In this document: piece after piece, positions 1 to 35,266 of the stretch
How the letters are laid out: every line of letters begins with the position of its first letter
How positions within the stretch are numbered: the stretch's first letter is position 1
Source: Nocardioidaceae bacterium SCSIO 66511
GTDB taxonomy: Bacteria > Actinomycetota > Actinomycetes > Propionibacteriales > Nocardioidaceae
Assembly (NCBI GenBank): GCA_023100825.1
Contig: CP095846.1
Coordinates: forward strand, 806,001-870,000
Reading direction: 5' to 3'
Length of the DNA stretch: 64,000 bases
Notes under the pieces: generated by a model
What the model saw: the letters and a program-made list of their open reading frames with translations, nothing else
Told to the model about the DNA's origin: nothing
The model's database searches: none
Program-made: the position numbers and the translations under genes

Positions 1-807
1 TATCAGCACTTCCTGTTCACACTCCCCGTATCCGAGTTCGCCTCTACCGGGACCGTGGTACTCGATTCCCGCCAGCAACAGCCGCGGGTCACCCCGCCCG
101 ACCGCACGCGCGCGCTCACCGCTGTTGTGAGCGCAGCTCGTGCTCTCGGACTCCACAGCGCGCAGGTCGATCTCGAGATCGCAAGCAATATTCCGGTCGG
201 CAAGGGCTGCGCGAGCTCGACGGCCGACGTGATGGCTTCGATCGCGGCGCTGTTGGACGCAACGCACACCCAGACTCCGGATGCCGTCGTGCATGCATTC
301 GGCGGCTTGGTCGCCAAGGACATCGAGTGGGGGGACTATCTGTTCAGTGACTCGATCGCCTTGTGTCTGCAGCGTTCGCACACGTTGGTGCGCGAGTACG
401 AGACGGACCTGCGGTGGCGCATCGTTTGCGTCGACGAGGGTGGTGTCGTCGACACGGCGCAGTTCCACGTACAGCAACGCGCGTCGCGCCGCCAAGCGCA
501 GCACTTCGATCTGCTTGCCAGGCAGCTCGATACCGCGCTGCGTGAGGGTGACTACGTGACGGCGGCGCAGATCGGAACCGAGAGCGCGCTGATAAACCAG
601 CGCGAACTACCGAAACGGACAATGCCGGTGATGCGTCGTGTCGCGGCCGCCACGGGTGCCCTTGGCCTTGCCGTCGCGCACACCGGGACCGTGATCGGAC
701 TGATCTTCTCCGAGCATCAAGACGACGCCACTCTGCGGATGCACGAGTCGCTTCGACTACTCGACGCGGAGGGGCTCGCACCCCGGATGTTGTCGGTACG
801 GGAGTGA
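1..807 (+). CDS. GHMP kinase, PduX-like L-threonine kinase (5' truncated)
   Basis: The frame is open from base 1, so the true start lies before the window; 268 codons are visible. The GHMP ATP-binding loop appears as IPVGKGCASSTADV, the form typical of PduX-type L-threonine kinases (GKGxASSTAD) rather than homoserine or mevalonate kinases. A C-terminal VAVAHTGTVIGLIF segment also matches that family. The predicted reaction is ATP-dependent phosphorylation of L-threonine to O-phospho-L-threonine in the cytosol. No cobalamin genes are nearby. Instead, the same cluster carries a cysteine-synthase-like PLP enzyme (31495-32529) and an argininosuccinate-lyase-like enzyme (33818-35266), the set associated with 2,3-diaminobutyrate formation. 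I therefore infer that phosphothreonine is the activated substrate for beta-replacement. It converges on the NRPS operon ending at 848. Family call firm; pathway role inferred. Confidence 0.82.
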   Translation, partial: YQHFLFTLPVSEFASTGTVVLDSRQQQPRVTPPDRTRALTAVVSAARALGLHSAQVDLEIASNIPVGKGCASSTADVMASIAALLDATHTQTPDAVVHAFGGLVAKDIEWGDYLFSDSIALCLQRSHTLVREYETDLRWRIVCVDEGGVVDTAQFHVQQRASRRQAQHFDLLARQLDTALREGDYVTAAQIGTESALINQRELPKRTMPVMRRVAAATGALGLAVAHTGTVIGLIFSEHQDDATLRMHESLRLLDAEGLAPRMLSVRE

Positions 808-817
808 CCGTACCGAC
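792..817. terminator. Hairpin at the kinase stop codon, between convergent genes
   Basis: A perfect 10-bp inverted repeat (GTCGGTACGG / CCGTACCGAC) with a 6-nt loop encloses the kinase stop codon and lies before the converging C-domain gene end at 848. There is no clear T tract. It could terminate transcription from both sides. Confidence 0.5.
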
Positions 818-847
818 GACCAGCGGCGCGCCGACCGGCGGTGAGAC

Positions 848-2206
848 TCAGTCGGTGAAACCGAGGGTCTCGCGCAGGAGCCCCGCGAGGTCGTCGGCGG
901 CCGCGGATGAAACGTCAGCGGGTCGGTGATCGAGGTCGACATCGATGACTCCACCTGTGACCCGAACCTCGCATGACAGCACCGACTTCGCGTACCCGAA
1001 CCGCACGGGCGACGGGCGCAGCACATCCAGCTCGCCGGGTGGGCTCTCGGTGAAAGTGAACCGCACGCCGATCTGCTCGTCCTGGACCGGCTCGTCGTCG
1101 AAAACGGCCTCGAAGGGAAGGTCTGCCGTGCCGAGCGCGAGAGTCAGAGTGCGGTGCACGTGGTCCGTGAGCTCGTGGTCGGACGACCTGGTCCAGTTCT
1201 CGGTTGGCGCCACAATGACCGTGTTGGTCAGGTTGCCCAGTGTCGTACCCAACTCCGGTCGCATCCGGGCGGTCGTACAGCATCCGATCGCCGTTTCGGC
1301 AAAGCCCGGGCGCCAGGTGCGCAAGGCGCGATACCAGGACGAGAGGGCGACCGAGACCGCCGACACCTGTTGACTTGTCGCTTGGTCGCGTAGTGCGGTC
1401 CACGCGGCGGCGCCGTTGCCGACATGTACGCGCCGGCCGTCACGGTTGCCACGTACGTGCAGTGGGCAGCGCGGTGTGTCACGGACTGCGCGACGGCGTG
1501 CCTCGACAGCAAACCCGAGGAAGCCGTCCGCCAGCTCGTGCTGCTGCCAGTCGGCGAGATCGCTGATGCGCAGTTGTTCGCGTACTCGGTCAGTACTCGT
1601 GAGGTATGCGGACATCGCCGGACCGAGTATCTGCCACAGACCTTGCTCGTCCAGGTGGAGATCGTGGCCGACGACGCCGATGGCGCCAGATCCGTCGGGC
1701 AACGAGTACACGAGAACCCGGGCCGGCTCGGTTGCGAGCTCGATCGGTTCGCGAGCAGCGATCGTGACGGCGTCCTGAACCCACTCCTGCGGATCGCTTG
1801 CATCCGTGGGTACTGAGTTGATCGACGGCACTGGGATGGGGACGCGGACGGCCACCGGTGTACCGTCCACGTCGAGGCCGACTCCACGACCGAGTGCGTC
1901 GAAGTCGGGTGCGACGGCTGTGAAAGCGGCGGCGAGATCTGCAGCGGGTGTGCGCGGTGCGAACCACAGGGCACCACAGTGGTAGAAGTCGTCGTGCCGG
2001 CCATCGTGGTCGAGCGCCCACAAAGTTTGCTGCTTGTGCGTGAGTCGACTCCCGAGTACCTCCCGGCGCTCGAGGGCTGTCTCCACGGTGCCGAGCAGGC
2101 CGCGTTCGGCTAGTGTGTTCACCGCCTTCGCTCGTTGTGCCGCGTCCATCGCCCGGAGCCGGTCGAGCACGGGCGACCTCGACGCCGTCGTCTCAACCGG
2201 CGGCAT
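848..2206 (-). CDS. Stand-alone condensation-like domain, catalytic His missing
   Basis: About 452 residues with the overall layout of an NRPS condensation domain and no A or T domain. The HHxxxDG active-site motif reads HDLHLDE: the first His and the Asp are kept, but the second, catalytic His is Asp. Normal peptide-bond formation is therefore doubtful, and a structural, docking or recruitment role, or other chemistry, is possible. The ATG at 2206 is chosen over upstream in-frame starts because it overlaps the preceding NRPS gene by only 14 bp and has an AGGTC-type ribosome site. It is the last gene of the leftward operon that begins at 10480 (threonine aldolase, C, C-A-T, C-A-T, C). Sequence between motifs is divergent, so confidence rests on length, context and the partial motif. 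Confidence 0.68.
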   Translation of the reverse strand: MPPVETTASRSPVLDRLRAMDAAQRAKAVNTLAERGLLGTVETALERREVLGSRLTHKQQTLWALDHDGRHDDFYHCGALWFAPRTPAADLAAAFTAVAPDFDALGRGVGLDVDGTPVAVRVPIPVPSINSVPTDASDPQEWVQDAVTIAAREPIELATEPARVLVYSLPDGSGAIGVVGHDLHLDEQGLWQILGPAMSAYLTSTDRVREQLRISDLADWQQHELADGFLGFAVEARRRAVRDTPRCPLHVRGNRDGRRVHVGNGAAAWTALRDQATSQQVSAVSVALSSWYRALRTWRPGFAETAIGCCTTARMRPELGTTLGNLTNTVIVAPTENWTRSSDHELTDHVHRTLTLALGTADLPFEAVFDDEPVQDEQIGVRFTFTESPPGELDVLRPSPVRFGYAKSVLSCEVRVTGGVIDVDLDHRPADVSSAAADDLAGLLRETLGFTD

Positions 2207-5200
2207 TGACCTGCGCCCCGTCGTCCAGTAGTTGATCGAGGACGTCATTGGCGAGGTTCTCGCTTTGTGCATGTCGTTCGATCGCGTCGGCGAGCTGGGC
2301 GATGGTGCTGGCCTCGAGCCACTCGCGTAGCGAAAGCCGGGTGTCGAAGGTACGGCGTACTTCCGCGATCACCTGCGTGGCGATGAGCGAATTTCCGCCG
2401 ATGCCGAAGAACTCCTCGTCGGCACCGACGGACTCGAGGTCGAGCAGCCTGCACCAGATAGCGGCGATGCGTTCCTCGACCGGTCCACTCGGGGCGCGCC
2501 CTGCTGTGCGGCCCACGCGTTCCGCGGCCGGGTCGGGCAGCTCCTGTCGATCGATCTTCCCGTTGGCGTTGAGCGGGAACTCATCCAGCACGATGACAGC
2601 AGTCGGCACCATGTACGGCGGCATCCGCTCGGCGAGGAACGAGCGCAGTTCGGCGACGTCGATCTGGCGGTCACCCGCCTCGATCACGTACGCGGCAAGG
2701 CTGCGGTCAGCGCCATCGCCGTACGGAACGACCAGGGATTCACGTACCGACGGGTGTTCGTTGATGCCGGCAGCGACTTCGAGAAGTTCGATTCGGATGC
2801 CGCGAACCTTCACCTGATGGTCTGCCCGGCCGAGGAAGTGCAGGTTGCCGTCTGGGAGCAGCAGCGCGATGTCGCCGGTTCGATACATCCGCGTACCCGC
2901 ACCTCTGAATGGGTCTGGTACGAACCGGGATGCGGCGAGCCCTGGGCGTCCGAGGTAGCCGCGGGTCACCGAGTCACCGGCGATGTACACCTCTCCTCGG
3001 GCGCCGAACGGCACCGGCTGCATCGATTCGTCGAGCACGTACGTGCGGGTGTTGTGCAACGGAGTGCCCGACCGAACGAACGGGAGGTCGTCACCGCGAG
3101 GGCAGACGTAGAACGTCGAGTCGATGGAGACCTCGGTGACGCCGTAGAGGTTGATCAGGTCGGCGTCGAGTCGTTCGTGGAAGCGGCGCAACAATGAGAC
3201 CGGAACCGGCTCACCGCTGACGAATACGTGGCGAAGAGACGTGCACTCATGCGCGCGATCGGCGGACAGGAACGTTTGCAGCATGGCCGGTACGAAGTGC
3301 AGAGTCGCGACCTCGTTGTCCTTGACGAGGTCGATGAAACGGTCGATGTCGAGATGGACCTTGCCGGGAGCGATCACGGCGCGTCCGCCGATCAGCAGCG
3401 GCCAGAACAGCTCCCACACTGCGGCGTCGAAGCTGTACGCCGTCCACTGCAGCGCCGCCTCATCCGGATGCAGGTCGAAACGCTCACGCATCCACCAGCA
3501 GAAGTTGACCGCACCGCCGTGCTCGATCAGGACACCTTTCGGCCGGCCGGTCGAACCCGAGGTGTACATGACGTAGGCGAGGTTGTTCGGGCGTACGTCT
3601 ACGTCTGGATTGTGCTCGGGGTGGCCGGCGAAAGCCACCTCGCCGTCGTCCGGGTCGAGCTCCACGATGCGTTCTCCGTCGTCCGGAAGCAGCGTGCGTA
3701 GTTTTCCCTCGATGAGCACAACCGAGCAGTCGAGGTCGTGATAGAGGTAGTCGAGCCGGCTGCGTGGGAAGAACGGGTCGAGCGGTGCGTACGCCGCGCC
3801 GGCCTTCAGGATGCCGAGTATTCCGACGGCGAGGTCGAGGCTTGGCTCGGCGCACAGACCCACGATGTCGTCGGGTCGGACACCCCGGGCGATCAGGTCA
3901 TGCGCGAGGCGATTCGCGCGTCGGTTGGTCTCGGCGTACGTGAGGGATTGGTCTCCGAAGACCAAGGCGACGGCGTTTGGGGTCTTGGCGGCCTGCTTCT
4001 CGACCAAGTGATGAAGGCAGCGATCGCTGGGATAGTCGGCGTCCGTCACGTTGTGACGGTGCACTGCGTCGGTCTGCGCGGCTGGCAGCAAGGAGAGCGT
4101 CTCAGTCGACCCGTCCTCGGCGATGAGTTCGCCAAGTGCGGTTGCGAGGCATTGGGGCAACTGGTCAGCGAGGTGGTCGTCAACGACCTCGGGGTCATAG
4201 GTTGCCAACAGCGTGTTCGGAGCGCCGGGCTCCAACCGAACCGTGTAGGCGACGGCTGGTGACGGTGGCGTGGGTCCGGCATCGGGTCGCAGATCGACGG
4301 CAGAGTCGAACAAACTCACGGTGCCGCCCTGCCCGGAGTAGTGATTGCGGTCGGCGCGGGTCATGTGGGCGGCAGTGTGCAGCCGGTGTACGGCAGCGGT
4401 CTGGTCAACAAGCCAGGTCTGCAGGGGACGGCGATCGAGACGGGCGACGAACGGAAGGGTTGTCTCGAAGCCGCCGATCGCGTCGGACAGGCCGGCCGGC
4501 CGCGCGTCGAGGAGTGCGCCGACGGCCGACGGCTCTCCGCCGCGGAATCGGTCCACCACGACGGACCACCCGAGCAGCGCAAGCCATTCGAGTGGCACCT
4601 TGAGATGACTCGCGACCCGGGCGAGGTCGGCGGCAAGACCCGGCGACAGATCATGCTGCGTGGTGCGATGCGGCTCGGGCAGCTTCCGGGGCTCCTCGAA
4701 GAGCGGGGTCGGACCGTCGAGATCATTGAGCGCGATCGACCAGTACTTCTGAAGCGCGTCGCGGTCGAGATGAGCCTCGCGCCATGCTCGGTACTCGGCG
4801 GCGCCGGGTACCGCTGCTGGGTCGTCGCCGGCGGCGAGCGCGACGGCGCGCCGGAGCATCACCAGAGCGGCGCGGTCGTCCAACGCGACCGGACTGTAGG
4901 CGACGACGAGGGCGCTCACCCCCGCGCTGCCTTCGCCGTCGACGACGGCGAACATGGTGCACAGCTGGCCCTCGGAGGTCACGGCCTCATTGACGGACGC
5001 CGCGACCACGGCGGCGGACTCAGCGATCTGTACCGGCGCTACCTCTCCGGTGGGCACTGCCGTTGGCGGCGCGTCGCCCGGGTCACGAACCGTCAGCCTG
5101 GCCGCGGGCGTCTCCTGACCGATCAGGTGCCATGCCCGTTGCACCGCGGCGATAGTGGTGTTGGGCGGGCACGTGATCTCCGCGGTTCCCATCGGCACAA

Positions 5201-5264
5201 GGCTGGGGTCGACCAACAGGTCGATCAGGCGGTCCTCTTGGACGGGTGTGAGTAAGGCGTCCAT
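2193..5264 (-). CDS. NRPS module C-A-T (degenerate C; Ser/diaminopropionate-like A pocket)
   Basis: 1023 residues. The N-terminal ~400 residues look like a C domain, but the active-site position reads SPVALDD, so both His are lost. Residues ~410-930 form a complete adenylation domain with YTSGSTGRPKG, YRTGD and NGKIDR. A carrier domain with GGNSL (Ser for phosphopantetheine) follows near 970. Reading the pocket by hand against PheA numbering gives D-A-W-H-F-S-L-I-D-K. This is close to the serine code (DVWHLSLIDK) and to codes of 2,3-diamino acid domains, so serine or the cluster's diaminobutyrate is a reasonable substrate. Its ATG shares one base with the stop of the upstream gene (TGATG), so translation is coupled. 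Domain call firm, substrate tentative. Confidence 0.88.
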   Translation of the reverse strand: MDALLTPVQEDRLIDLLVDPSLVPMGTAEITCPPNTTIAAVQRAWHLIGQETPAARLTVRDPGDAPPTAVPTGEVAPVQIAESAAVVAASVNEAVTSEGQLCTMFAVVDGEGSAGVSALVVAYSPVALDDRAALVMLRRAVALAAGDDPAAVPGAAEYRAWREAHLDRDALQKYWSIALNDLDGPTPLFEEPRKLPEPHRTTQHDLSPGLAADLARVASHLKVPLEWLALLGWSVVVDRFRGGEPSAVGALLDARPAGLSDAIGGFETTLPFVARLDRRPLQTWLVDQTAAVHRLHTAAHMTRADRNHYSGQGGTVSLFDSAVDLRPDAGPTPPSPAVAYTVRLEPGAPNTLLATYDPEVVDDHLADQLPQCLATALGELIAEDGSTETLSLLPAAQTDAVHRHNVTDADYPSDRCLHHLVEKQAAKTPNAVALVFGDQSLTYAETNRRANRLAHDLIARGVRPDDIVGLCAEPSLDLAVGILGILKAGAAYAPLDPFFPRSRLDYLYHDLDCSVVLIEGKLRTLLPDDGERIVELDPDDGEVAFAGHPEHNPDVDVRPNNLAYVMYTSGSTGRPKGVLIEHGGAVNFCWWMRERFDLHPDEAALQWTAYSFDAAVWELFWPLLIGGRAVIAPGKVHLDIDRFIDLVKDNEVATLHFVPAMLQTFLSADRAHECTSLRHVFVSGEPVPVSLLRRFHERLDADLINLYGVTEVSIDSTFYVCPRGDDLPFVRSGTPLHNTRTYVLDESMQPVPFGARGEVYIAGDSVTRGYLGRPGLAASRFVPDPFRGAGTRMYRTGDIALLLPDGNLHFLGRADHQVKVRGIRIELLEVAAGINEHPSVRESLVVPYGDGADRSLAAYVIEAGDRQIDVAELRSFLAERMPPYMVPTAVIVLDEFPLNANGKIDRQELPDPAAERVGRTAGRAPSGPVEERIAAIWCRLLDLESVGADEEFFGIGGNSLIATQVIAEVRRTFDTRLSLREWLEASTIAQLADAIERHAQSENLANDVLDQLLDDGAQVNAAG

Positions 5265-8011
5265 CAGCGGTCTCCGGTTCCTTGTCTGGCCTCGTCGTTG
5301 ATCACGCTGTCGAGCACGTCGAGGACGGAGGTTGTCGAACCGTCGTCGCCCTCCTCGATCAGCCGGTGCAGAGTCGCGACTGTCGGTTCCTCGAAGAACC
5401 GTGCGAGCGGTACGTCGACCCCGCGTTGCTCTTTGACCTGGAGCAGGATCCGCATCAGCTGCACAGAAGTCGCGCCGACCGAGAACAGTTGGTCGTCAGG
5501 ACCGACTGCTGTGGCCAGTACGGGTGCAACGATCTCGGTCGCGAGTCGCTTCTCCTCAGCGCTGCTCCAATCTGCGGCGGTCTGCGGGCGTGCGTCGCGG
5601 TCGAGCACGAGTTGCCAGCACCCCTGATCGGAAAGGGAACCTGGATCTTCGTGCCACACCAACTCCGCTTCGGCGAGCGGCGCGGGGAGGTCGACGTCTC
5701 CGGCAAGTGCCGTCGACCTGGGTACATCCGAGCAGTCGGCGTACGGCAGGACGACGAATGCCTTCTCCGGAGTGTCGGTATCTGCTGGTGGCAAGACGAC
5801 CCGCGCACCGGGCACGGCCGCCTCCCACGCGCCGGCAAGGCACGTGCGCGTGCCGGCGACCGTGCGGCCGTGTGCATGGCGCAGCACGCGGAGCCCGTTG
5901 CGGGTGCGTCCGACGAGCACGCCCGTGTGTAGCACCCGGGCACCGCCTGCGGCAGGACGCAACGAGTCGGCAGTACGACGCGGGTCGCCCACGTAGCGAG
6001 TGCCCGGGTCGACCGGCAACGTCAGTTGCGCGACCGTCCCGATCGGGCACGGGGCGCCGTCCGGGCCGACGATCCGTGCGCCGTCCTTCGTGGCGTCGGT
6101 CAGTACGCCGTTGTGAACAAACCACTGGGTGGAGGGCGCCTCGGCGAACCACCATCGATTACCGGTGCCGTTCGGCCGACGGTGCCATCTCCGCGTACCG
6201 GCCAGTGAGGTCAACGGCATCTTGGCGCTGAGTACCAGGTCGGCATTCAGGTGCACGCCGTCGTGAGCGGCGAGCAGGTCCGTGGCTTCGGCGGCGTCGT
6301 CGCCGATCACCACGAGGTCCGCACCGGATGCGCCGCAGGCCAATGCGGTCACGACGAGGTCCTCGCCTCCACGAGAGGTGTTGACCGCACACGCTACGCC
6401 GTCGCCAAGGTCGAGACGTGTGATGAGAGCGGTCGCCGCGAGCAGCAGATCGTGTGTCGGTACGCGTGCGAGCACGGTCGGCCCGGGTGCGCTCGACAGG
6501 CCGAGCAGCAGCGCGCCGTCCGCGTCGTCTGGTTCGACATTAGTATTGGCATTGCCGACATCGGTGCCCGTTGGAGGACGAACCGCATTGTCCGTGTCGA
6601 TGGTGTACGCGCCTGGCAGCTGCTCGCGAAGCGCGTTACGCCAGGGAAGCGGGTCGGCGGGATCGATCAGCAAGACGTCGGCACCGCGGCGTAGACCCGC
6701 GAGTACGTTCGCGACGGTCTCGGGTCCTGGCGTTGTCTCGAGCACGAGCCCGTCACCCGGCCCCAAACCCGCCGCGGCGAGTTCGTCGTCACGCCGCGCG
6801 ACGGCCGCGCCGACGACGTCGGCGTCGAGCGTACGGCGGGTGGTGACCAGCCGCGGCGCGTACAACGCCGCGACGCGCGGGTCCTCGACCGGTGAGGGTG
6901 TGGTCGCGGTTTCGATACCGCCCGGTGTTTCGAGGGCACGGTGCAGGGCAGGAAGCGTGGCCGCCGGCCCTGCGAGGTACAACTCTGCAGTTGCGCGAGT
7001 ACGCACGAGCACGGCGCGCCAACCGGCGGATTCGTCGAGCAACGGCTCAACGTGCACATCGCCGTCGAGCCGCAGATCGGGCAGATCGACGACGTCGACC
7101 TCGAGCTGGACGAGTGGCTCGCCGGATGCTTCGTGGAGCATCTCCGATACGGCGCCCGTTGGTGCAGCGGGCCCTAGTTCGCCGGCGCACGACACGGTGC
7201 CGATCAGTGCCTGCATCGTGCGTCCGACCGCAGGCACCGACTCGACTCGTTCGGCCCATCGCTGCGTACGGATCTGGTTCGACTGCCACCCGCAGCTGCC
7301 GAGCGCGATCGCGACATCACGGGCGAGGGCGTCGAGGGCTTCCGTTCGGCCCGCCGCAATACGGTCAGCGACCGGTCGCGAGAGCACATCGAACTGCTCG
7401 TCCGCGACGAACTTCGCGTAGGGGTCCGCCAACGGCGCGCCGATTTCGCGAACGACCTGCTCGATGGCGGTCGGTCCGGGGGCGGGCTGGTTGGTCAACC
7501 AGTAGCAGTGATCGCCGAATGAGACGCGGGCGTCACTAGCCGGAGGACCGTTTCGATATGCGGCCGAGACATCGGCCAGTAGCGCGCCCCACGCGGCACG
7601 GTCGAACAGAGACGCCGACACCGCAAGAGTGACGCTCACCTCGCCTCCCGTGCCATTGCGTTGGCCGATCGACCAGCGCAACGGATGCTCGGGATCGGGT
7701 TCGATGAGCTCTGGAGCGGGGACGCGGGCGGCCGGTTGGACCACCGACTCGAGGAACCACCGACCGCTGTCACGTGTCGCACGGAGTCGCAGTGCTTCGT
7801 GTCGGCGCGCGGTCGAGTCCAATGCCGCGGCGAACCGCTCTTCATCGAGGCTCGACGTGGTGAGACGTACCCGGTGGGTGCCTGAGCCGGTGCGGCCGAA
7901 CTCGGTCGGTAGTGGGATGCGCGCAGAGGACGGCCGCGGTCGGACGCCGTTCCCGCGCTCGGTGGCGACTTGGCGGGCGATTGCGCGTAATGCGCGACTG
8001 CGGTCAGACAT
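5264..8011 (-). CDS. NRPS protein with decayed C and A domains and a carrier domain
   Basis: 915 residues laid out as C-A-T, but the first two domains look dead. The C part has no HHxxxDG. The A part lacks the phosphate loop: where SGSTGxPKG should stand there is SSAPGPTVLA, and the YRTGD motif reads LHTGV. Fragments of the late A-domain pattern remain recognisable (TRYVGDPRRTADSLRP then a degraded GD motif). The carrier domain near residue 840 keeps its serine in VGATSVQL, an unusual form of GGxS. The T domain could therefore still be modified and be loaded in trans by another A domain of the cluster. It overlaps the upstream C-domain gene by 8 bp. It is also consistent with a non-functional relic, but the long intact frame argues for selection. 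Confidence 0.75.
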   Translation of the reverse strand: MSDRSRALRAIARQVATERGNGVRPRPSSARIPLPTEFGRTGSGTHRVRLTTSSLDEERFAAALDSTARRHEALRLRATRDSGRWFLESVVQPAARVPAPELIEPDPEHPLRWSIGQRNGTGGEVSVTLAVSASLFDRAAWGALLADVSAAYRNGPPASDARVSFGDHCYWLTNQPAPGPTAIEQVVREIGAPLADPYAKFVADEQFDVLSRPVADRIAAGRTEALDALARDVAIALGSCGWQSNQIRTQRWAERVESVPAVGRTMQALIGTVSCAGELGPAAPTGAVSEMLHEASGEPLVQLEVDVVDLPDLRLDGDVHVEPLLDESAGWRAVLVRTRATAELYLAGPAATLPALHRALETPGGIETATTPSPVEDPRVAALYAPRLVTTRRTLDADVVGAAVARRDDELAAAGLGPGDGLVLETTPGPETVANVLAGLRRGADVLLIDPADPLPWRNALREQLPGAYTIDTDNAVRPPTGTDVGNANTNVEPDDADGALLLGLSSAPGPTVLARVPTHDLLLAATALITRLDLGDGVACAVNTSRGGEDLVVTALACGASGADLVVIGDDAAEATDLLAAHDGVHLNADLVLSAKMPLTSLAGTRRWHRRPNGTGNRWWFAEAPSTQWFVHNGVLTDATKDGARIVGPDGAPCPIGTVAQLTLPVDPGTRYVGDPRRTADSLRPAAGGARVLHTGVLVGRTRNGLRVLRHAHGRTVAGTRTCLAGAWEAAVPGARVVLPPADTDTPEKAFVVLPYADCSDVPRSTALAGDVDLPAPLAEAELVWHEDPGSLSDQGCWQLVLDRDARPQTAADWSSAEEKRLATEIVAPVLATAVGPDDQLFSVGATSVQLMRILLQVKEQRGVDVPLARFFEEPTVATLHRLIEEGDDGSTTSVLDVLDSVINDEARQGTGDR

Positions 8012-9431
8012 CGGCGCGTCCCCCGTTCAGCAAGTTCAGGACCGTGTCGCGCTCCGCGCGTCCGACGAGCGGGACGTCGCTGACACGTAGGGAGTTGTCG
8101 GCCGCAACCCAGTCGAAGATGCGTGCGAGCCGGTCAGCGAGTCGTCCGGCGGTGTCGCGCTCGAACAACGCATCGCTGAATTCCATCTGGACGGTCGGTC
8201 GCTGGAGACCGAGTGCGAAGGTGGCGTTGAGGTCGAAGCGCGCGACCGCGTAGTCGGCGACGACCGGCTCCGTTCGGATGCCAGCCATCTCGAACGCCGG
8301 AGCCGCCTCATCCAACACCGAACAGAATGCGGTGTACAGCGGGTTACGAGCGTTCCCACGCTCGGCGCCGACAGTACGTACGACCTCGCCGAAGGGCACG
8401 TCCTGGTGTTGCAACGTGCGAGAGAGCGCAGCGCCGGTGGTTCGCACCAGGTCGGCGACGCTTGCGTCCGGATTGATGACGATGCGCACGCAGACCGTGT
8501 TGAGGAAGCACCCGACCATCGGCTGGGTGACGGCGTCGGTACGGCCGGCGACAGGCGTTCCGATCAGAAAGTCGGTGCGTCCGGTGCAGCGGTGGAGCAG
8601 GAGCGCGTAGCAGCTCAGCGCCGCCGAGAACAGGCTTGTGCCGCACTCGCGTGCGAGGCCGGACAGCCCCTGCACGACGGCGGGGTCGATCTCGCGCCGG
8701 AGGGTGATCATCCCTGCACCGACACCGTGCCCTGGTCGGTCGGCGGGCAATGGGAGCTCCGCGACGCCGTCGAGCTCGGTCCTCCAGAAATCCAGCCCGG
8801 CCTGGTCTGTCGTGCGTTGTGCACGCTGCCGGGCGATATCCGAATAGCTGGTGGTCAGTTGCGGAAGGCCGGCATCGTCGGGAGTCCCGCCAGTGCTCAG
8901 CGCCGCGTAGGTACGGGTCAGCTCGGACGAGACGATCGACAGTGAAACACCATCGACGACGAGGTGATTGAAGGTGAAGACCAACAGGTGCTCATCGGAG
9001 GTGAACCGGATCAGCCGTATTCGCATCGGTAGCTCAGCGACCAAGTCGAAGGGGCGATCGAGCTCTTCGCGCAGGACGTGCTGGATGTGCTGTTCGACGC
9101 TGTCGGTCCGGTTGGCGGCAGCGTCGTCGATGCCGGCAGGCTCGGACTCGATCCGTGGTACGGCGCCTTCCGCATCCCACTCGGTGACGTGCTGGCGCGG
9201 AACTCCAGCATGGTCGGGGACGAACCGGGTGCGCAGCGGTTCGTGGCGGCGAACGACATGCTCGATCGCGGTCCGCAGGTTAGGGACGTCCAACTGTCCG
9301 TGCAGGCGCAACGCGACCTGGAGGTTGTACTCCGACGTGTCCGGACGAAGTTGCTGCAGGAACCACAACCCGCGCTGCTGAGGGGCCAGCGGAGCCGGCT
9401 CGTGCGCAGGAGCGGACGGGTTGACTGTCAT
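8004..9431 (-). CDS. Stand-alone NRPS condensation domain, active-type motif
   Basis: 475 residues forming a single C domain with no fused A or T. The C1-like start (PLAPQQRGLWFLQQL), the catalytic motif NHLVVDG and later conserved blocks (GTPVAGR, VGCFLNTV, NPLYTAFC) are all present. The first His is Asn, but the second, catalytic His and the DG are kept, so it should be able to condense. Start (ATG) and the upstream threonine-aldolase stop share four bases (ATGA). Because it lacks carrier domains it must use T domains on other proteins, for instance those of 5264-8011 and 2193-5264 in the same operon. It is the most normal-looking condensation domain of the leftward operon. Confidence 0.88.
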   Translation of the reverse strand: MTVNPSAPAHEPAPLAPQQRGLWFLQQLRPDTSEYNLQVALRLHGQLDVPNLRTAIEHVVRRHEPLRTRFVPDHAGVPRQHVTEWDAEGAVPRIESEPAGIDDAAANRTDSVEQHIQHVLREELDRPFDLVAELPMRIRLIRFTSDEHLLVFTFNHLVVDGVSLSIVSSELTRTYAALSTGGTPDDAGLPQLTTSYSDIARQRAQRTTDQAGLDFWRTELDGVAELPLPADRPGHGVGAGMITLRREIDPAVVQGLSGLARECGTSLFSAALSCYALLLHRCTGRTDFLIGTPVAGRTDAVTQPMVGCFLNTVCVRIVINPDASVADLVRTTGAALSRTLQHQDVPFGEVVRTVGAERGNARNPLYTAFCSVLDEAAPAFEMAGIRTEPVVADYAVARFDLNATFALGLQRPTVQMEFSDALFERDTAGRLADRLARIFDWVAADNSLRVSDVPLVGRAERDTVLNLLNGGRADV

Positions 9432-10480
9432 CCTGCCGCTCCAGCCCGCAGCGGCGCGAAGGTAGCGGCGGCGGCGCGGAGCGCGACGTCGATGTCGTCG
9501 TCCGTCAGGTCACGATGGGTGACGAAGCGGACGACGCCCGGCACGACCTCGGTCACCCGAACGCCGGCCGCCGCCAGTGTCTCGACCAAGTCACCAGCAG
9601 CCGCACCGATGTCGAGTGTCACGATGTTGGTTGTTGGCGGCTCATCCAGCAGGTCGGTGGGAAGGAAGTGCGTGAACCCTTCCCACAGGTCACGCGCGCG
9701 GCGGTGATCGTCGGCGAGGTCGGCGACGCGGCCCAGACCGACGAGTCCGGCTGCAGCGAGGTGACCAGCCTGCCGAAAGGTGGAGCCGAGCGTACGGCGA
9801 AGCACCCGCGCATGCTCGATGAACTCCGCAGACCCACAGAGCACCGAACCCATCGGCGCACCGAGTCCCTTGTACAGCGAGATCGAGACCGAGCAACAGC
9901 GTGCGACTGCTTCGTCCGCGCTGTAGCCCGAGGCGACGGCGGCGTTGAACAGTCTCGCGCCATCGCAGTACAGAGGAACTCCGGCGTCATCGCAGAGGTC
10001 CGCGACGACATCGATCTCGGAGACGGACCACGGCCGCCCCCCGCTGGCGCTGTGAGTGTTCTCGATCGCGACAACTGCTGGGCGCGGTGCGTAGGGATCG
10101 GCTGCGGCAAGGGCGCTCGCCAGAGCGTTCAGGTCGAGCTGACCATGCCGACCGGGCAGCGGCAGGGTCTGCAAGCCTGCCACCTGGGCGAGTGTGTGCG
10201 CCTCCCATGCATGGATGTCCGACGTTGCATGCGTCAGCACCTGGCGGCCGCTCCGACCGTCAGCGACGTTGCACAACGTCAGGAGCGCCACCATGTTGGC
10301 GCTCGTACCGTTGGTGAGGTACAAGCCGGCGTCCTTCCCGACCATCCGTGCGGCGGTGCGCTCGAGTTCGTCAACCGTCGGGTCCTCGCCGTAGAAGTCG
10401 TCGCCGACCTCTGCCGTGACCATTGCTTCACACATGCGGTCATCGGCGACAGTGACTGTGTCAGACCTGAAGTCAGCCAA
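9428..10480 (-). CDS. Low-specificity L-threonine aldolase family, PLP enzyme
   Basis: 350 residues matching the fold-type I threonine aldolase / beta-eliminating lyase family: N-terminal DFRSDTVT, the NGTSAN region, and a PLP-lysine motif SLYKGLGAPMGS. The family interconverts glycine plus an aldehyde with beta-hydroxy-alpha-amino acids. It starts at TTG (10480), supported by GGGAGG seven bases upstream; no closer ATG fits. It is the first gene of the leftward NRPS operon, so it probably makes or trims a beta-hydroxy amino acid building block, or adjusts threonine/glycine supply. It is not a transaldolase of the SHMT-like type. Function in the pathway is inferred from position only. Confidence 0.85.
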   Translation of the reverse strand: MADFRSDTVTVADDRMCEAMVTAEVGDDFYGEDPTVDELERTAARMVGKDAGLYLTNGTSANMVALLTLCNVADGRSGRQVLTHATSDIHAWEAHTLAQVAGLQTLPLPGRHGQLDLNALASALAAADPYAPRPAVVAIENTHSASGGRPWSVSEIDVVADLCDDAGVPLYCDGARLFNAAVASGYSADEAVARCCSVSISLYKGLGAPMGSVLCGSAEFIEHARVLRRTLGSTFRQAGHLAAAGLVGLGRVADLADDHRRARDLWEGFTHFLPTDLLDEPPTTNIVTLDIGAAAGDLVETLAAAGVRVTEVVPGVVRFVTHRDLTDDDIDVALRAAAATFAPLRAGAAG

Positions 10481-10682: not shown

Positions 10683-10886
10683 ATGGACGATTCCGATACC
10701 CGCGAATACCTGGTCGTGCTGAACGACGAGGAGCAATACTCCATCTGGCTGGCCGACAAGCCGTTGCCAGCAGGGTGGCACACCGACGGAACTCGCGGCA
10801 CGAAGGACGAGTGTCTCGATCACATCGAGCAGGTGTGGACCGACATGCGCCCGCTCAGCGTGCGTAAGCGACTCGCGAACGCCTGA
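10683..10886 (+). CDS. MbtH-like protein
   Basis: 67 residues. It carries the MbtH signature: LNDEEQYSIW, PLPAGW, then CLDHIEQVWTDMRP. MbtH-like proteins bind NRPS adenylation domains and help their folding or activity. The ATG at 10683 has a very good ribosome site (GAGGAGG, 5-11 bases upstream). It sits directly before an A-T gene at 10903 with a 16-bp gap, so that A domain is the obvious partner, though it may serve the other A domains of the cluster too; it is the only MbtH gene visible. Confidence 0.95.
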   Translation: MDDSDTREYLVVLNDEEQYSIWLADKPLPAGWHTDGTRGTKDECLDHIEQVWTDMRPLSVRKRLANA

Positions 10887-23636: not shown

Positions 23637-23662
23637 GATGGTCCTCCGCGTGCTGACGGTGG

Positions 23663-26709: not shown

Positions 26710-26755
26710 CGGACGTCGTCGCCGCACCGCTTCGAACTGCAAACCGAGCAGGAAG

Positions 26756-28785: not shown

Positions 28786-28812
28786 GTGTTGTCCTCTCCT
28801 CGGATAGGGTTG

Positions 28813-29730: not shown

Positions 29731-29770
29731 GTTCGATGCGATGGCACACCGGAGAGCGAGGGAGGTCCAG

Positions 29771-31498
29771 GTGCGGGACGGTGATGTGGCGCACGACGTG
29801 ATCCACTATCGCGTCGGATACTGGGTAGGACTGACCCCTGACAACCCGGCGATCGTAGATGGCGACACGGTGCTGACCTACGCCGAGTTGGATGCCCGTG
29901 CGGCGTCAGTGGCGGCTCGGCTCGCCGGCGACGGCGTCGGTATCGAGGACAGCGTTGCGGTCCAGATACCGCGTGGCCACCGCGCTGTGATCGCCTTCCT
30001 GGCGGTTCTCAAGGCCGGCGCCCGATATGTGCCGATCGACCCGTCCTATCCGGCGGATAGACAACGGTTCATGTGCGATGACTCCGACAGCGCTCGCACC
30101 GTCACCGAGGACTATGTGGACGCGGCGATTGCCGAACCGTCTACTGAGCCGCGGCGCGAGGTCGTGGGATCCAATGCTGCGTACGCCGTTTACACCTCGG
30201 GCTCCACCGGAGCTCCCAAGGGCGTGATCGTCGAACATCGCAACGTATGCGCATTTCTCGATGAACCGCGGCTCGCCGTCCAGTCCGGCGAGACGGTCGC
30301 ACAGAACGTGTCGATCAGCTTCGATGTGGCGACCTTCGAGATCTGGGGCGCACTCTGTAACGGCGCCTGTCTGGTGATACTGGCCGGAGGGCGTTCGGTT
30401 GCCGAGTTGGCGGCCGACATCCGCCGGGTGCGTCCCGACTGGATGTTCTTGACCGCCGGAGTGTTCCACCTGATGGTCGAACATGACCTCGACGCGCTTG
30501 CTTCGGTAGGCACCTTGCAGGCCGGCGGTGACGTGCTCGCGCCATCGCGGTGGATGCGTGCAGCGGCAACGACGCGCCGCGGTCTGTTCAACGCGTACGG
30601 TCCGTCAGAAACGACGGTGTACTCCGCCTTGTACCGCGCCGAGCCGTACGAGCAGCTGGAGACATCGGTTCCTATCGGCGTTGCTCCCGTCGGTGAGCGC
30701 CTCGCCCTCGGCGAAGGCGGGGATCGGCATGGCACCGGAGAGATTCTCATCGGCGGCGTCGGGGTTTCGCGCGGGTACCATCGGCGTCCCCGGCTGACTG
30801 CGGAGCGGTTCGTTCCCGATCCTGATTCACCGCACGCCGGAGCTCGACGCTATCGGTCGGGTGACCTCGGCAGCGTTGACGGCAACGGCGTATACCGCAT
30901 GCACGGGAGAATCGACCGGCAGGTGAAGGTGCGCGGCCATCGAATCGAGCTCGCCGAGATCGAGGCGGTGCTCTGCGCGCACCCGGAGGTGCGGCAGGCC
31001 GCAGCGGTGACCTTCGATGTCGGCGCCGAGAAGCGCCTCGGCGTGTTCGCCTCGCCGTCAGCGCCCGGCGCGGTCTCGTCGAACGATCTGCGCATCTGGA
31101 TGCGGGAGGCCGTACCTGAGTACATGGTTCCGGCCAATGTTCAGGTCATCGATGAGATCCCGTTAGACGGCAACGGCAAAGTGCACCGTGCTGCATTGCC
31201 GTCGCCTTGGACCCGCCGCGCCGATCTGGCCGCGCTCGGACCACCCGCGCGCCCGAACTCCGCGCTCGAGCAACGGTTGTGCGAGCTGTGGGCCGACACG
31301 CTTCAGATCGATGAGGTCGGTATCGACGACAACTACTTCCTTCTCGGGGGCGACTCGCTGCGCAGCATCTCGCTCCTTGCGAACCTCAACGAATTGGGCT
31401 TCGAGGTGACGGCCGAGGAGTTCCTCGCCAACCAGAGCGTCGGCGAGCTCGCCGATCTACTCGAATCGAATGCGGGCAGGGAGACGGTGGCATCGTGA
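29771..31498 (+). CDS. Stand-alone NRPS A-T didomain
   Basis: 575 residues from the GTG at 29771, chosen for GGAGG five bases upstream; the ATG at 29741 lies before that ribosome site. The A domain has YTSGSTGAPKG, NAYGPSETT, YRSGDLG and NGKVHR, and is followed by a carrier domain (FLLGGDSL). The hand-read pocket is D-V-F-F-L-A-A-V-Y-K, rich in hydrophobic residues and with the alpha-amine Asp, so a hydrophobic amino acid is more likely than a charged one; I do not match it to a known code. It heads a long coupled operon: A-T, beta-replacement PLP enzyme, tiny ORF, ATP-grasp, lyase, thioesterase, TIM-barrel protein. With no C domain attached it must pass its amino acid to a free C domain. Confidence 0.92.
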   Translation: MRDGDVAHDVIHYRVGYWVGLTPDNPAIVDGDTVLTYAELDARAASVAARLAGDGVGIEDSVAVQIPRGHRAVIAFLAVLKAGARYVPIDPSYPADRQRFMCDDSDSARTVTEDYVDAAIAEPSTEPRREVVGSNAAYAVYTSGSTGAPKGVIVEHRNVCAFLDEPRLAVQSGETVAQNVSISFDVATFEIWGALCNGACLVILAGGRSVAELAADIRRVRPDWMFLTAGVFHLMVEHDLDALASVGTLQAGGDVLAPSRWMRAAATTRRGLFNAYGPSETTVYSALYRAEPYEQLETSVPIGVAPVGERLALGEGGDRHGTGEILIGGVGVSRGYHRRPRLTAERFVPDPDSPHAGARRYRSGDLGSVDGNGVYRMHGRIDRQVKVRGHRIELAEIEAVLCAHPEVRQAAAVTFDVGAEKRLGVFASPSAPGAVSSNDLRIWMREAVPEYMVPANVQVIDEIPLDGNGKVHRAALPSPWTRRADLAALGPPARPNSALEQRLCELWADTLQIDEVGIDDNYFLLGGDSLRSISLLANLNELGFEVTAEEFLANQSVGELADLLESNAGRETVAS

Positions 31499-32529
31499 CT
31501 CAGCTTTCCGGCCGGACCCCCGACGACGCGCTGCGCGTCTACGAGCTACCGCAGTTCGTACGGCTGCGGAGCGGGGTCGTGGCCGTCTGCTTTCCGCTGA
31601 TGAAGCTGCTCGTCGCGCGGCACATCATCGACCACGCGCTCGCGAACGGCATGATCCGACCAGGGACGCGAGTGCTCGAGACAACGTCGGGCACGTTCGG
31701 ACTAGGACTCGCGCAGGTGTGCGCAGTGCGCGGGTTGCCGCTGACCTTGGTGACTGATCCCGTCGTCGATGAGTCCTTTCGCAACAAACTCGAAGCGCTC
31801 GGCGCCGACATCGACATTGTCGAACATCCCGCCGCCGAAGGGGGATACCAGCGCTCGCGGCTCGACCGGCTCGAGCAGCTGCGCAGCAATGAACCCGACG
31901 CGTTCGTGCCCGAGCAGTACGCGAACCCGCAGAATCCGGCCGCGTACGGTTCGGTCGCCGACCTGATCACCGAGCACGTCGGACGCGTCGACCATCTCGT
32001 CGGCTGCGTTGGTTCCGGTGGCTCGATGTGCGGATTGTCCGCGGGGCTACGGCGCTCCCAGAGCACCCTCGACGTCGTGGGTGTCGACACCCACGGCAGT
32101 GTTCTGTTCGGTATGCAGGACCGGCCGCGGGTGTTGCGCGGTCTCGGCAACAGCCTGATCCCGCCGAACGTCGCCCACGAGGCGTTCACGTCCGTGCACT
32201 GGGTCAATGCCGCCGAGGCGACCACGGCGACCCGACGTCTCCTGCGCGAAGAGGCGTTGTTCCGCGGCCCGACCAGTGGAGCGTCGTACCTTGTCGCGCA
32301 ATGGGTGAAGCAACGGAATCCCGATGACACCGTCGTCGCTGTCATGGCCGACGAGGGCGAGCGTTATCTGGACACGGTGTACAACCCCGGCTGGCGCCGC
32401 GAACACGACTGCGTGCTCAAGCAGCTCCCCACCGATCCGGTCGCCGTGACGAGTCCCGCTGAAGCGCAGGAACTCGGCACCTGGAGTCGGATGAAGTGGG
32501 TGAGCACAAAGGCAGAGGTGGCCGCGTGA
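31495..32529 (+). CDS. Cysteine-synthase-like PLP enzyme (beta-replacement)
   Basis: 344 residues of the fold-type II cysteine synthase / SbnA group. ETTSGTFGLGLA corresponds to the TSGNTG substrate loop, and VGSGGSMCGL to the phosphate-binding GTGGT loop. The PLP lysine is in CFPLMKLLVAR, replacing the usual GGSxKDR. It starts with GTG overlapping the A-T stop (GTGA). In diaminobutyrate pathways such an enzyme exchanges the phosphate of O-phosphothreonine for an amine, probably from an amino acid donor such as aspartate. The threonine kinase at the window's left edge and the lyase three genes on fit this. Diaminopropionate or cysteine formation are the alternatives. Family firm, substrate inferred. 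Confidence 0.85.
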   Translation: MTQLSGRTPDDALRVYELPQFVRLRSGVVAVCFPLMKLLVARHIIDHALANGMIRPGTRVLETTSGTFGLGLAQVCAVRGLPLTLVTDPVVDESFRNKLEALGADIDIVEHPAAEGGYQRSRLDRLEQLRSNEPDAFVPEQYANPQNPAAYGSVADLITEHVGRVDHLVGCVGSGGSMCGLSAGLRRSQSTLDVVGVDTHGSVLFGMQDRPRVLRGLGNSLIPPNVAHEAFTSVHWVNAAEATTATRRLLREEALFRGPTSGASYLVAQWVKQRNPDDTVVAVMADEGERYLDTVYNPGWRREHDCVLKQLPTDPVAVTSPAEAQELGTWSRMKWVSTKAEVAA

Positions 32530-32600: not shown

Positions 32601-32612
32601 GAGGTAGGCTGT

Positions 32613-33821
32613 ATGACGCATCGCGTGGCGGTGTTCGTCGAGAGCAATACGACGGGCCATGGTGCGGAGCTGCTCCACGTTACGCGGAGACTGGGACTCG
32701 ACCCAGTGCTGCTCGCGCGGAACCCCGCGCGTTATCCGTTCGCGGTCGACAGCGCCCGCGTTCTGACGGCTGACACTGCAGATCCGGACGCGGTGCTTGC
32801 CAGATTGCGTGACCTACCCGGCCGGATCGTACTCGTCACCTCAGCGTCTGATCGCTTCGTCGAGACGGCGGCACGGGTCGCGGCGGCGTTGCAACTGCGG
32901 GGACCGAACGCCGAAGCCGTCGCCAGCTGTAACGACAAGGCGCGCCAACGCGAAGTCCTGGCCGCGGCGGGCGTTGCCGTGCCGCAATGGATGGTTGCTG
33001 GGGACGCACAGTCGGCCGGCACTTGCGCTGAGCAGATCGACCGACCGTTCGTCGTGAAGCCGGTGACCGGCAGCGGTTCGGTGGGTGTGCGGTTGTGTAC
33101 GACCCCGGCTGAGGTCGCAGCGCACGCGGGCGCGTTGCTCGCCGGGTCGGTCGACGAGCGCGGCGAGGCGCTGCCCGGGGCGGTTCTCGTCGAGCAGGCC
33201 GTACCCGGTCGTGAACTCTCGGTGGAGATCCTCGGTGGCGAGGTGGTCGGTGTCACTGAGACGCGCCTCGGTTCGCCGCCGCATTTCATCGAGGTCGGGC
33301 ACGAGCATCCGGCACGCCTGACGACCGATGATGCGGAACGAGTCACTGGTCTTGCCCTTGCCGCGGTCCGTGCGCTTGGTCTCTCGGACCAGAACGCACA
33401 CGTCGAGGTGCGCTTCACCGACGACTCCGAATGGATCATCGAGGTCAACCCGCGCCTACCAGGTGGACTCATCACCAGGCTCGTGCGCGTCGCGACCGGC
33501 GTTGACATGCTTGCGGCGCATCTGCAGGCATTGCTGGGCGAGCAGCCTGTCTCCGCGCCTGGCCGGCGTCGGGGTGCGGCCATCGGATTCGCCATCAACC
33601 CGCCTCCTGGAACGCGCCCCGACCTAGGTGAGGTGAGGTCCCTTCCCGGAGTCGTGGAGGTCGCGTACGACCACTCCCGCGTCGGCAGTGCAGGGCACGG
33701 CGACTTCCGAGACCGAGTCGGCTGGGTGCTTGCCGAAGGCGCCGACTCAGAGGAGGCCGCCGAGCGGGTCGAGTCCGCGCTCGAATTGCTCATCGGTACC
33801 GCGGACAGGTGTCCCGCGTGA
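32613..33821 (+). CDS. ATP-grasp ligase
   Basis: 402 residues with the ATP-grasp layout: CNDKARQREVLAAAGVAVP before the nucleotide site, FVVKPVTGSGSVGVR as the glycine-rich loop, and EVNPRLPGG with the metal-binding Glu and Asn. It resembles the carboxylate-amine ligase branch (BacD/carbamoyl-phosphate-like), which forms an acyl phosphate and joins it to an amine, for example making dipeptides or amides. It lies between the beta-replacement enzyme and the lyase gene, overlapping the latter. It may build an amide on the diamino acid, or ligate the peptide outside the NRPS. The start is an ATG with GAGAGG upstream. Substrate unknown. Confidence 0.85.
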   Translation: MTHRVAVFVESNTTGHGAELLHVTRRLGLDPVLLARNPARYPFAVDSARVLTADTADPDAVLARLRDLPGRIVLVTSASDRFVETAARVAAALQLRGPNAEAVASCNDKARQREVLAAAGVAVPQWMVAGDAQSAGTCAEQIDRPFVVKPVTGSGSVGVRLCTTPAEVAAHAGALLAGSVDERGEALPGAVLVEQAVPGRELSVEILGGEVVGVTETRLGSPPHFIEVGHEHPARLTTDDAERVTGLALAAVRALGLSDQNAHVEVRFTDDSEWIIEVNPRLPGGLITRLVRVATGVDMLAAHLQALLGEQPVSAPGRRRGAAIGFAINPPPGTRPDLGEVRSLPGVVEVAYDHSRVGSAGHGDFRDRVGWVLAEGADSEEAAERVESALELLIGTADRCPA

Positions 33822-35266
33822 CCGGGCGGCTGACCGCGACCCTCCTTCCGGAGGCGCAGGCGATCGTGCAACAGCCAGGCGTGGACAAGGCGTTAGCGGG
33901 TGAGCTGCGCACTGCCATGGACGTCGACCGAGCACACCTGATCATGCTCGTCGAACGCGGGATCGTCCCCGCTCCGGCCGGCTTGGCCGTGCTGGATGCC
34001 ATCGACAAACTGGACGCAACCGACCTGACCGGCCTACGGGAACGTCCCGCGCCGCGCGGGTGGTATCTGATGTACGAGGCCTACCTCTGCGAGCAACTCG
34101 ACCTCGAGGTGGCCGGCTGGCTGCCGACGGCGCGCTCGCGTAACGATCTGGCCGCGACACTCGCGGCGATGTCACTGCGGCGGGCGCTCGCCGACCTCGG
34201 CGCCAAGGTGGTGCGACTGCACCTCGCACTCCTGCGGCAAGCACGCACCCACCTGCACACGGTGATGCCTGGGTTCACGCACGGACAGCCTGCGCTGCCC
34301 GTCACGTACGCGCACTACCTCGCCGCTGTCGCCGGCGAGGTCGGACGCGCACTGCGGCATATGCTGACGGCGATCGAAGACCTCGACGAGTGTCCGCTCG
34401 GTGCGGGTGCCATGGGAGGCACTTCCATTCCGATCGACACGCGGCGCACTGCAGAACTGCTCGGCTTCACCCGTCCGGCGAGGAACTCGTTGGCCGCTGT
34501 TGCCTCACGCGACACGGCGCGTCGACTGTGCGCCGACGCCACCGGAATCGCCGATCTGCTCAGTCGGGTTGCCACGGACCTGCACGGGTGGGTCAGTCTG
34601 CCGGAGCCGCTGCTTCGATTGCCCGACTTCCTGGTCGGCCAGAGCTCGATGATGCCCCAGAAGCGCAACGCCTACATGCTCGAACACATCCAAGGACGCG
34701 CATCCGCTGCCCTCGGCGCCTTCACCGCGATGTCGGCCGGTACCCAGAAGGCGCCGTTCACCAACTCGATTGCGGTGCACACGGAAGCGACGCGCTACGT
34801 CGAGGAGGCTGTACGTGTCACGACCGAGACGGTCACCCTGTTGCGACTGGTTGTGTCGTATGCGATCCCCGATCGCGAGGCGATGCTCGCGCGGGCGGAG
34901 TCCGGCATGACCCAGGCGACGGAGATCGCCAACCGGCTGGCGTTCGTGGACGGTCGAGGTTTCCGCGCCGCCCACGAGATCGTCGGCGCGGCGGCGCGCC
35001 ATGCGGTCCAGCGCGACATTTCGCTGCGCGAGGCCGTCAGGGCAGACACGGCGACCACGGTCGACGCGTTGGACGTGACCTCCGTAGCCGAAGCGAACTG
35101 CTACGGAGGTGGACCGGCACCGCAGACCGTTCAACAGGACCTCGCCGGCCTCACCAGCGCGCTGTTGGTCGCTCGGCGCGATCTGCGCGCGGCGAGCGCG
35201 AGGTGGGAGTCCACCCACGGTCGCATCGCGCGGGCGGTCGACGAACTGCGCCAGGAGTACGCATGA
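33818..35266 (+). CDS. Argininosuccinate-lyase-like enzyme
   Basis: 482 residues of the fumarase/aspartase superfamily, argininosuccinate lyase branch. TARSRNDL, PGFTHGQPALPV (catalytic His region), PLGAGAMGGTSIPID and the flexible signature loop SSMMPQKRNAY are all present, so it is probably active. The family eliminates fumarate from an N-succinyl compound, leaving a free amine. No arginine genes are near. With the threonine kinase and cysteine-synthase-like enzyme it completes the set known for 2,3-diaminobutyrate: aspartate adds to the phosphothreonine-derived intermediate and this enzyme then removes fumarate. Start taken at GTG 33818 (GTGA overlap with the ATP-grasp stop, GGACAGG upstream); a GTG at 33809 is possible. 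Confidence 0.87.
   Translation: MTGRLTATLLPEAQAIVQQPGVDKALAGELRTAMDVDRAHLIMLVERGIVPAPAGLAVLDAIDKLDATDLTGLRERPAPRGWYLMYEAYLCEQLDLEVAGWLPTARSRNDLAATLAAMSLRRALADLGAKVVRLHLALLRQARTHLHTVMPGFTHGQPALPVTYAHYLAAVAGEVGRALRHMLTAIEDLDECPLGAGAMGGTSIPIDTRRTAELLGFTRPARNSLAAVASRDTARRLCADATGIADLLSRVATDLHGWVSLPEPLLRLPDFLVGQSSMMPQKRNAYMLEHIQGRASAALGAFTAMSAGTQKAPFTNSIAVHTEATRYVEEAVRVTTETVTLLRLVVSYAIPDREAMLARAESGMTQATEIANRLAFVDGRGFRAAHEIVGAAARHAVQRDISLREAVRADTATTVDALDVTSVAEANCYGGGPAPQTVQQDLAGLTSALLVARRDLRAASARWESTHGRIARAVDELRQEYA

Follow-up and report, generated by a model that had tools for sequence, protein, structure and literature searches.

Antibiotics of the friulimicin and laspartomycin kind contain diamino acids, laspartomycin having diaminopropionate (Dap) at residue 2 instead of diaminobutyrate (Dab). 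For friulimicin, a passage of PMC12473245 gives the residues Dab2, Pip3, MeAsp4, 2,3-Dab9 and Pro11, and a figure legend in the same review spells Dab as 2,4-diaminobutyrate. The window analysed here, a stretch of 64,000 nucleotides (G000:C1:806001-870000) in the single-contig genome (4,609,448 bases) of Nocardioidaceae bacterium SCSIO 66511, holds a nonribosomal peptide synthetase (NRPS) cluster with genes for a GHMP kinase, a pyridoxal phosphate (PLP) enzyme of the PALP family, an ATP-grasp ligase and an argininosuccinate lyase (ASL)-like protein. Gene sets for 2,3-diaminobutyrate are of a known kind; what is added here is one ATP-using enzyme in the set, and we do not claim that its association with the set is unpublished. 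We put at roughly 70% the probability that the four enzymes jointly supply one NRPS product with a 2,3-diamino acid, 2,3-diaminobutyrate being the likeliest; that the set makes a 2,3-diamino acid as such is, judged from sequence, very probable. Homology, clade membership, synteny, co-occurrence and gene fusions are the observations from which the reactions, the product and its loading are predicted.

The friulimicin-type reference is genome G476, where the genes follow one another as PALP, ASL, ATP-grasp, an adenylation (A) domain gene in which no condensation (C) domain was detected (code DIWQSTADDK), and kinase. The modules then read Asp, a C domain without an A domain, Pip, Asp/MeAsp, Asp, Gly, Asp, Gly, DAFFWGEVFK, Val and Pro. 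With the remaining friulimicin residues and the meanings of A-domain codes as we presume them to be, this is the friulimicin order, and G476 is therefore taken as the friulimicin producer, Actinoplanes friuliensis. Since the module lacking an A domain stands at Dab2, the separate DIWQSTADDK domain, a code present in 18 of the 101 A-domain rows collected, probably loads Dab in trans. The G476 gene order also leads us to infer that DabC is the ATP-grasp enzyme, not a kinase. Two Streptomyces clusters (G868 and G566) carry the same separate A domain, with modules for Asp, C without A, Pip, Gly, Asp, Gly, Asp, Gly, Thr, an Ile/Val-like residue and Pro; by this order they appear to be of the laspartomycin type.

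All four window proteins match family profiles built without them (kinase 170, PALP 464, ATP-grasp 406 and ASL 522 bits). A preliminary description of this DNA had recognised the kinase, the PALP enzyme and the lyase as belonging to one NRPS cluster and to the kind found beside friulimicin-type NRPS genes, and the Pfam matches, the collinearity of the cluster in a sister species and the G476 cluster bear this out. Its set of three is present in full and yet incomplete, as the ATP-grasp gene between PALP and lyase had been overlooked. That gene overlaps the start of the lyase gene by 4 nt, and the A-T gene (T, carrier domain) overlaps the PALP start by another 4 nt, which makes a closely packed run of A-T, PALP, ATP-grasp and ASL. 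The kinase had been placed about 30 kb from the other two, and the gap is indeed 30.7 kb in the window and 30.6 kb in the second species of the genus (G001). The split to which attention had been drawn is thus real and conserved, but it is not striking: it is kept in G001, the friulimicin-type kinase lies beyond the A-domain gene, and no kinase was found in four of 33 Streptomyces genomes with the set. A PduX model was not among the matches in an NCBIfam scan of the window proteins.

Comparison with G001 shows that the cluster is one unit. The best G001 counterparts of the 32 proteins compared, a series that begins with the kinase and reaches UbiA at 45 kb, all lie in the same order. The four genes are under purifying selection, as seen from pN/pS values between window and G001 of 0.17 (kinase), 0.11 and 0.24 (PALP, in two pieces), 0.27 (ATP-grasp) and 0.21 (ASL). 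One extra base breaks the frame of the G001 PALP gene (L005/L008), either through a sequencing error or through real decay. At E 1e-40, PALP was found in none of 35 same-family genomes of other genera.

The PALP enzyme (Pfam PALP, E 1.5e-38) was placed in a tree of 73 rows, with reading frames picked by profile (L017, L029 and L030 included in the right frame) and with eight near-duplicate cassette rows, L023, L025 and the Actinoplanes set L069, L070, L073, L076 and L079 omitted; "cassette" here means the clustered genes of this set. There the window row belongs to a clade of 42 rows (100/99), which also holds G476; the remaining 40 rows are labelled as PALPs of a cassette or paired with a kinase, save for one of metallophore type. 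The branch of the window row is long (1.27), and its placement within the clade is without a resolved exact sister. A second kind of cassette PALP (L061, L062, L085, L086 and L149; five rows) is sister to this clade (90/79). Leaving aside the metallophore-type row, the clade has 41 rows, of which 34 carry an MKLL-type motif around the PLP lysine and none KDR; KDR is found in the five second-kind rows and the SbnA rows. The lysine itself, K37, is invariant across seven PALPs.

Because the closest solved relative of the PALP enzyme is SbnA, and lyases of the cassette kind are called argH in public annotation, the genes could also be read as an SbnA/SbnB-type diaminopropionate pathway, or as an ordinary cysteine synthase with an argininosuccinate lyase. 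However, Staphylococcus aureus SbnA, a Kribbella-like SbnA and the CysK-family proteins of the same genome all lie outside the PALP clade, and the match to the SbnA family TIGR03945 (237 bits) stays under the cut-off of 350. The lyase likewise scores 234 bits against TIGR00838 (argH), under the cut-off of 279.5, and in a tree of 28 rows it is one of a group of 20 cassette ASLs (91/93), apart from the ArgH-type proteins of its own genome; its loop SSMMPQKRN is intact. No SbnB-type (ornithine cyclodeaminase) Pfam match was found among the 50 window open reading frames (ORFs) scanned, and separate CysK-family and ArgH genes that pass the family cut-offs lie elsewhere in the genome. On trees and cut-offs, all these candidates were rejected as very improbable. 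The preliminary description had staked its reading on the PALP enzyme not grouping with SbnA or cysteine synthases, and on this point the reading survives. Two order-level PALP matches (G048 and G038) proved to be KDR-type, that of G048 adjoining an SbnB-like gene and NRPS genes; they served as outgroup for the PALP comparison.

In the pathway that we propose, the kinase would convert L-threonine to O-phospho-L-threonine, the PALP enzyme would exchange the phosphate for the amine of L-aspartate, and the lyase would eliminate fumarate, leaving the second amine. The ATP-grasp enzyme most likely forms an amide bond between amino acids, because the best solved relatives of its family profile are the L-amino-acid ligase BL00235 and then BacD. 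It would act at some stage between PALP and lyase, a position suggested by gene fusions of both kinds, ATP-grasp-ASL in L050 and L056 and PALP-ATP-grasp in L061, L062, L086 and L149. Residues K109, K149, E277, N279 and R281 are invariant in 12 ATP-grasp sequences.

The same ATP-grasp-ASL fusions, the matches of the window ATP-grasp and ASL to the two halves of the fusion family NF002563 (309 and 369 bits), and the kinship with amide-forming ligases would also suit a different chemistry. As with SAICAR synthetase and adenylosuccinate lyase, aspartate would be joined to a carboxylate and fumarate removed, giving a carboxamide and not free diaminobutyrate. The same genes, though, occur in the clusters read as friulimicin and laspartomycin, and the diamino acids of these two antibiotics are ring residues and are not known to be carboxamides. 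We consider a carboxamide product unlikely.

The kinase is the component for which the threonine route has to be weighed most carefully. Its ORF is open at the left edge of the window; the genome sequence shows that the frame continues to the left of the window, where TTG/GTG codons lie in frame some 215-240 nt from window position 1. The protein matches Pfam GHMP_kinases_N (E 1e-7) and retains the GxxSSTAD motif. By sequence it is a member of the wider kinase family, outside both cassette kinase groups. With the window kinase as query at E 1e-8, 24 of 394 genomes of the class, its own included, gave a match, and 20 same-family genomes gave none. The closest relative in the class (G1052, 34% identity) is part of an NRPS cluster that also has PALP, ASL and ATP-grasp. 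In seven neighbourhoods fetched from the 23 other genomes PALP was present in 7/7, ATP-grasp in 4/7 and ASL in 2/7.

O-phosphoserine is supplied by primary metabolism and O-phosphothreonine is not. PALP, ATP-grasp and lyase might thus make 2,3-diaminopropionate from O-phosphoserine, with the distant kinase doing something else. The distance of 30 kb and the strong divergence of the kinase speak for this, as do four Streptomyces genomes in which the three genes were found without kinase, two of them laspartomycin-like. It is opposed by the retention of the kinase in G001, by the cluster around its best relative among the class genomes, by PALP in all seven fetched neighbourhoods and by the kinase in 29 of 33 cassette genomes, and we regard it as rather unlikely. 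The four genomes without a kinase match (G868, G566, G660 and G892) include both that were read as laspartomycin clusters, and their Dap fits with a kinase needed only where the diamino acid derives from threonine. Clusters with and without kinase are a natural experiment that makes the donor amino acid testable.

The association of the genes was followed in several samples. At E 1e-40, PALP occurs in 15 of 396 genomes from the phylum, counting the window's own. In the closest of the others (G330, 54% identity), PALP, ATP-grasp, ASL and kinase are side by side, and no Condensation-domain match was found in that genome. A PALP of the cassette kind (E 1e-95) occurs in 33 of 392 Streptomyces genomes. 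In stretches of up to 20 kb around it, ATP-grasp and ASL are present in 33/33 loci and the kinase in 28/33; the ATP-grasp gene is thus as constant in the set as the lyase. Genome-wide, a kinase (E 1e-30) was found in 29 of the 33 PALP-positive genomes versus 90 of the other 359 (Fisher p 9e-13), five first-look candidates being scored per genome, so that a kinase not found is no proven absence; in G868 and G566 a profile scan over 100 and 80 kb around the cassette likewise detected none. The kinase is therefore associated with the cassette, yet it also occurs apart from it. For a rough control, 14 loci fetched out of 16 matches to other PALPs had ASL in none, ATP-grasp in three and kinase in one, by plain tblastn, which is less sensitive than profiles.

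Beyond Streptomyces chromosomes, a scan of genome contigs gave five loci (L048-L052), with all four genes in a Blastocatellia (L049) and a Pyrinomonadaceae (L050) genome, and three genes followed by the contig end in an actinobacterial metagenome-assembled genome (L048). In a survey of plasmids (10 neighbourhoods inspected among 79 kinase and 121 PALP records), all four genes were present in Streptomyces ITFR-16, NBC_01707 and NBC_01351, Azospirillum oryzae, Sinorhizobium fredii, Kitasatospora NBC_00039 and S. globosus. Altogether, 43 of the 53 loci scanned with profiles contain the four genes, a count that is not a rate, as the loci had been picked by a PALP or kinase match. Among the loci, no uridyl-peptide cluster was identified. 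Two Streptomyces loci point to possible metallophore pathways, one (L044) with genes for PALP, a DUF364 protein, an ATP-grasp ligase, MR_MLE and MFS, and the other (L045) with PALP, a DUF364 protein, kinase and FecCD/periplasmic-binding genes.

Several points weigh against the proposed route. The most serious is that the window kinase, the most divergent part of the set, falls in neither of the two kinase groups in a tree of 44 rows (after removal of six near-duplicates), on the longest branch (3.64). Its relatives in 90 of the 359 Streptomyces genomes without this PALP mean that the kinase is by itself no proof. Sets without the lyase also exist: Actinoplanes regularis (L051) has kinase, PALP and three ATP-grasp-type genes, and Pandoraea horticolens (L052, a 9-kb contig) has kinase, PALP and two ATP-grasp-type genes, with no ASL within the available stretch in either. 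Plasmids of Aminobacter, Mesorhizobium and Bosea (L058-L060) have kinase and PALP and neither ASL nor ATP-grasp. A simple scheme of kinase, PALP and lyase leaves the ATP-grasp enzyme without a task, and the enzyme to which a passage in PMC4052310 compares DabB is no lyase but the deaminase VioK. Finally, the A-domain code DAWHFSLIDK, discussed below, is close to that for serine. On the same three plasmids, which are conjugative or rhizobial, a gene annotated as threonine synthase lies close by, in L058 and L059 together with a homoserine-lactone synthase gene.

The question of loading was addressed through the five A domains of the window, with codes DAWHFSLIDK, NVSFLGWIVK, DMIYIGGVLK, DVFFQGAVYK (by eye DVFLLAAVYK) and DAWTVTGVGK. 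The first of them, in the protein at 2193-5264, had been put forward as a C-A-T protein with this very pocket and as the possible loader. Our code reading gives the same pocket. In a tree of 40 rows selected from the A domains collected, the domain is sister to five DDVQ-type domains of other cassette clusters (95/81), followed by two serine-type domains (94/93) and then by the DIWQ group (88/94). The S. globosus locus (L062) holds serine-type and DDLQVSTIDK domains within one cluster, which makes serine an improbable substrate of the DDVQ type. The domain at 2193-5264 is the best candidate of the five for the diamino acid, which it would probably load, and serine remains a candidate, being near to it both by code and in the tree. 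As to the domains, A and T were confirmed. The C part looks degenerate: Pfam gave no match, a simple pattern search detected nothing like HHxxxDG, and the similarity to solved C domains is weak (best E 3.7e-5). Two further long NRPS-like proteins (5264-8011 and 848-2272) are without Pfam C or A match, with a carrier domain in the first only, and probably hold degenerate C and A domains.

Table 1. Features of the window relevant to the proposed pathway.
Feature	Position in window	Strand	Evidence
GHMP kinase, probable O-phosphothreonine maker	1..807, start ~0.2 kb left of window	+	Pfam GHMP_kinases_N, cassette-kinase profile
Degenerate C-like part, A, T (DAWHFSLIDK); best candidate loader of the diamino acid	2193..5264	-	code, tree
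GntG-family PLP aldolase	9428..10480	-	NF041359, 290 bits vs cut-off 230
MbtH-like protein gene	10683..10886	+	PF03621, E 7.7e-20 at G000:C1:816686-816832
A-T protein, code DVFFQGAVYK (alignment) or DVFLLAAVYK (by eye)	29741..31498	+	Pfam, code
PALP (DabA-type) beta-replacement enzyme	31495..32529	+	Pfam PALP, DabA-type clade 100/99
ATP-grasp ligase, constant fourth member	32613..33821	+	Pfam ATP-grasp_4, N half of NF002563
ASL-like lyase, probable fumarate release	33818..35266	+	Pfam Lyase_1, C half of NF002563, groups with cassette ASLs

The GntG-family aldolase listed in Table 1 may change which beta-hydroxy amino acid enters the pathway. Such an aldolase lies beside the cassette in five of the 33 Streptomyces loci and in the plasmid loci L054, L056 and L062. 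A broader proposal, which we regard as doubtful, is that diamino acids of the friulimicin/laspartomycin kind (2,3-diaminobutyrate and 2,3-diaminopropionate) are made through an obligatory, ATP-dependent, amide-linked intermediate formed by the ATP-grasp enzyme before fumarate release, and not by plain PALP-then-lyase action. In clusters of the GntG type, including the one in the window, the kinase would furthermore receive from the aldolase not L-threonine but another beta-hydroxy amino acid, either allo-threonine or something longer, and the 2,3-diamino acid made would differ accordingly. The MbtH-like gene is the sole match to PF03621 genome-wide.

Other genes of the cluster give hints about the remainder of the product. 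The regions 10903-12678, 22428-29580 and 38548-42061 hold genes for a tryptophan-dioxygenase-like protein, an SDR, two P450s and two class I/II aminotransferases, besides the A domains NVSFLGWIVK and DAWTVTGVGK. Together they suggest an aromatic starter derived from tryptophan, perhaps one of the quinaldic/quinoxaline kind; a code that begins with Asn, as NVSFLGWIVK does, is presumably usual for aryl acids. A separate thioester-reductase-like protein (17089-18345, NAD_binding_4) points to a possible release of the peptide in aldehyde or alcohol form. An AlkZ-like DNA glycosylase gene lies within the cluster (36892-38052); self-resistance is a possible role for it, and would suggest a DNA-damaging product. 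Further to the right (44721-56622), UbiA, AMP-ligase, enolase-like and thiamine pyrophosphate (TPP)-enzyme genes resemble menaquinone biosynthesis, with an oligopeptide ABC transporter between them, and the right border of the cluster is probably near 44 kb.

With the window, the makers of friulimicin-type diamino acids gain a cluster from a lineage distant from Streptomyces, and its ATP-grasp step poses a concrete question in the biosynthesis of an antibiotic building block. Compared with SbnA/SbnB, which provides diaminopropionate for staphyloferrin B, it shares the PALP superfamily and the probable use of an O-phospho amino acid, but its PALP belongs to a separate clade and is accompanied by a lyase and an ATP-grasp enzyme instead. 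The ATP-grasp-ASL fusion family NF002563 (PRK02186) is likewise related through both its halves, which in the window are two genes, each scoring under the fusion cut-off of 625 bits. Laspartomycin-type clusters (G868 and G566) have PALP, ASL and ATP-grasp in common with the window; they differ in that no kinase was found there and in the Dap of their product. The friulimicin dab genes (G476) agree in having PALP, ASL, ATP-grasp and kinase in one NRPS cluster, with PALPs of one clade, whereas the order differs (PALP-ASL-ATP-grasp-A domain-kinase, against A-T, PALP, ATP-grasp, ASL and a kinase 30 kb off), DIWQSTADDK is not among the five A domains of the window, and the NRPSs are otherwise dissimilar. 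In GntG-type cassette clusters (Streptomyces NBC_01707 L054, G751 L118, G659 L123, G575 L130, G537 L147 and G562 L148, and S. globosus L062) the kinase adjoins PALP or ASL, unlike here, but cassette and GntG aldolase occur together as in the window, and the A domain at 2193-5264 has as its sister group the DDVQ-type A domains of L054, L118, L148 and L062.

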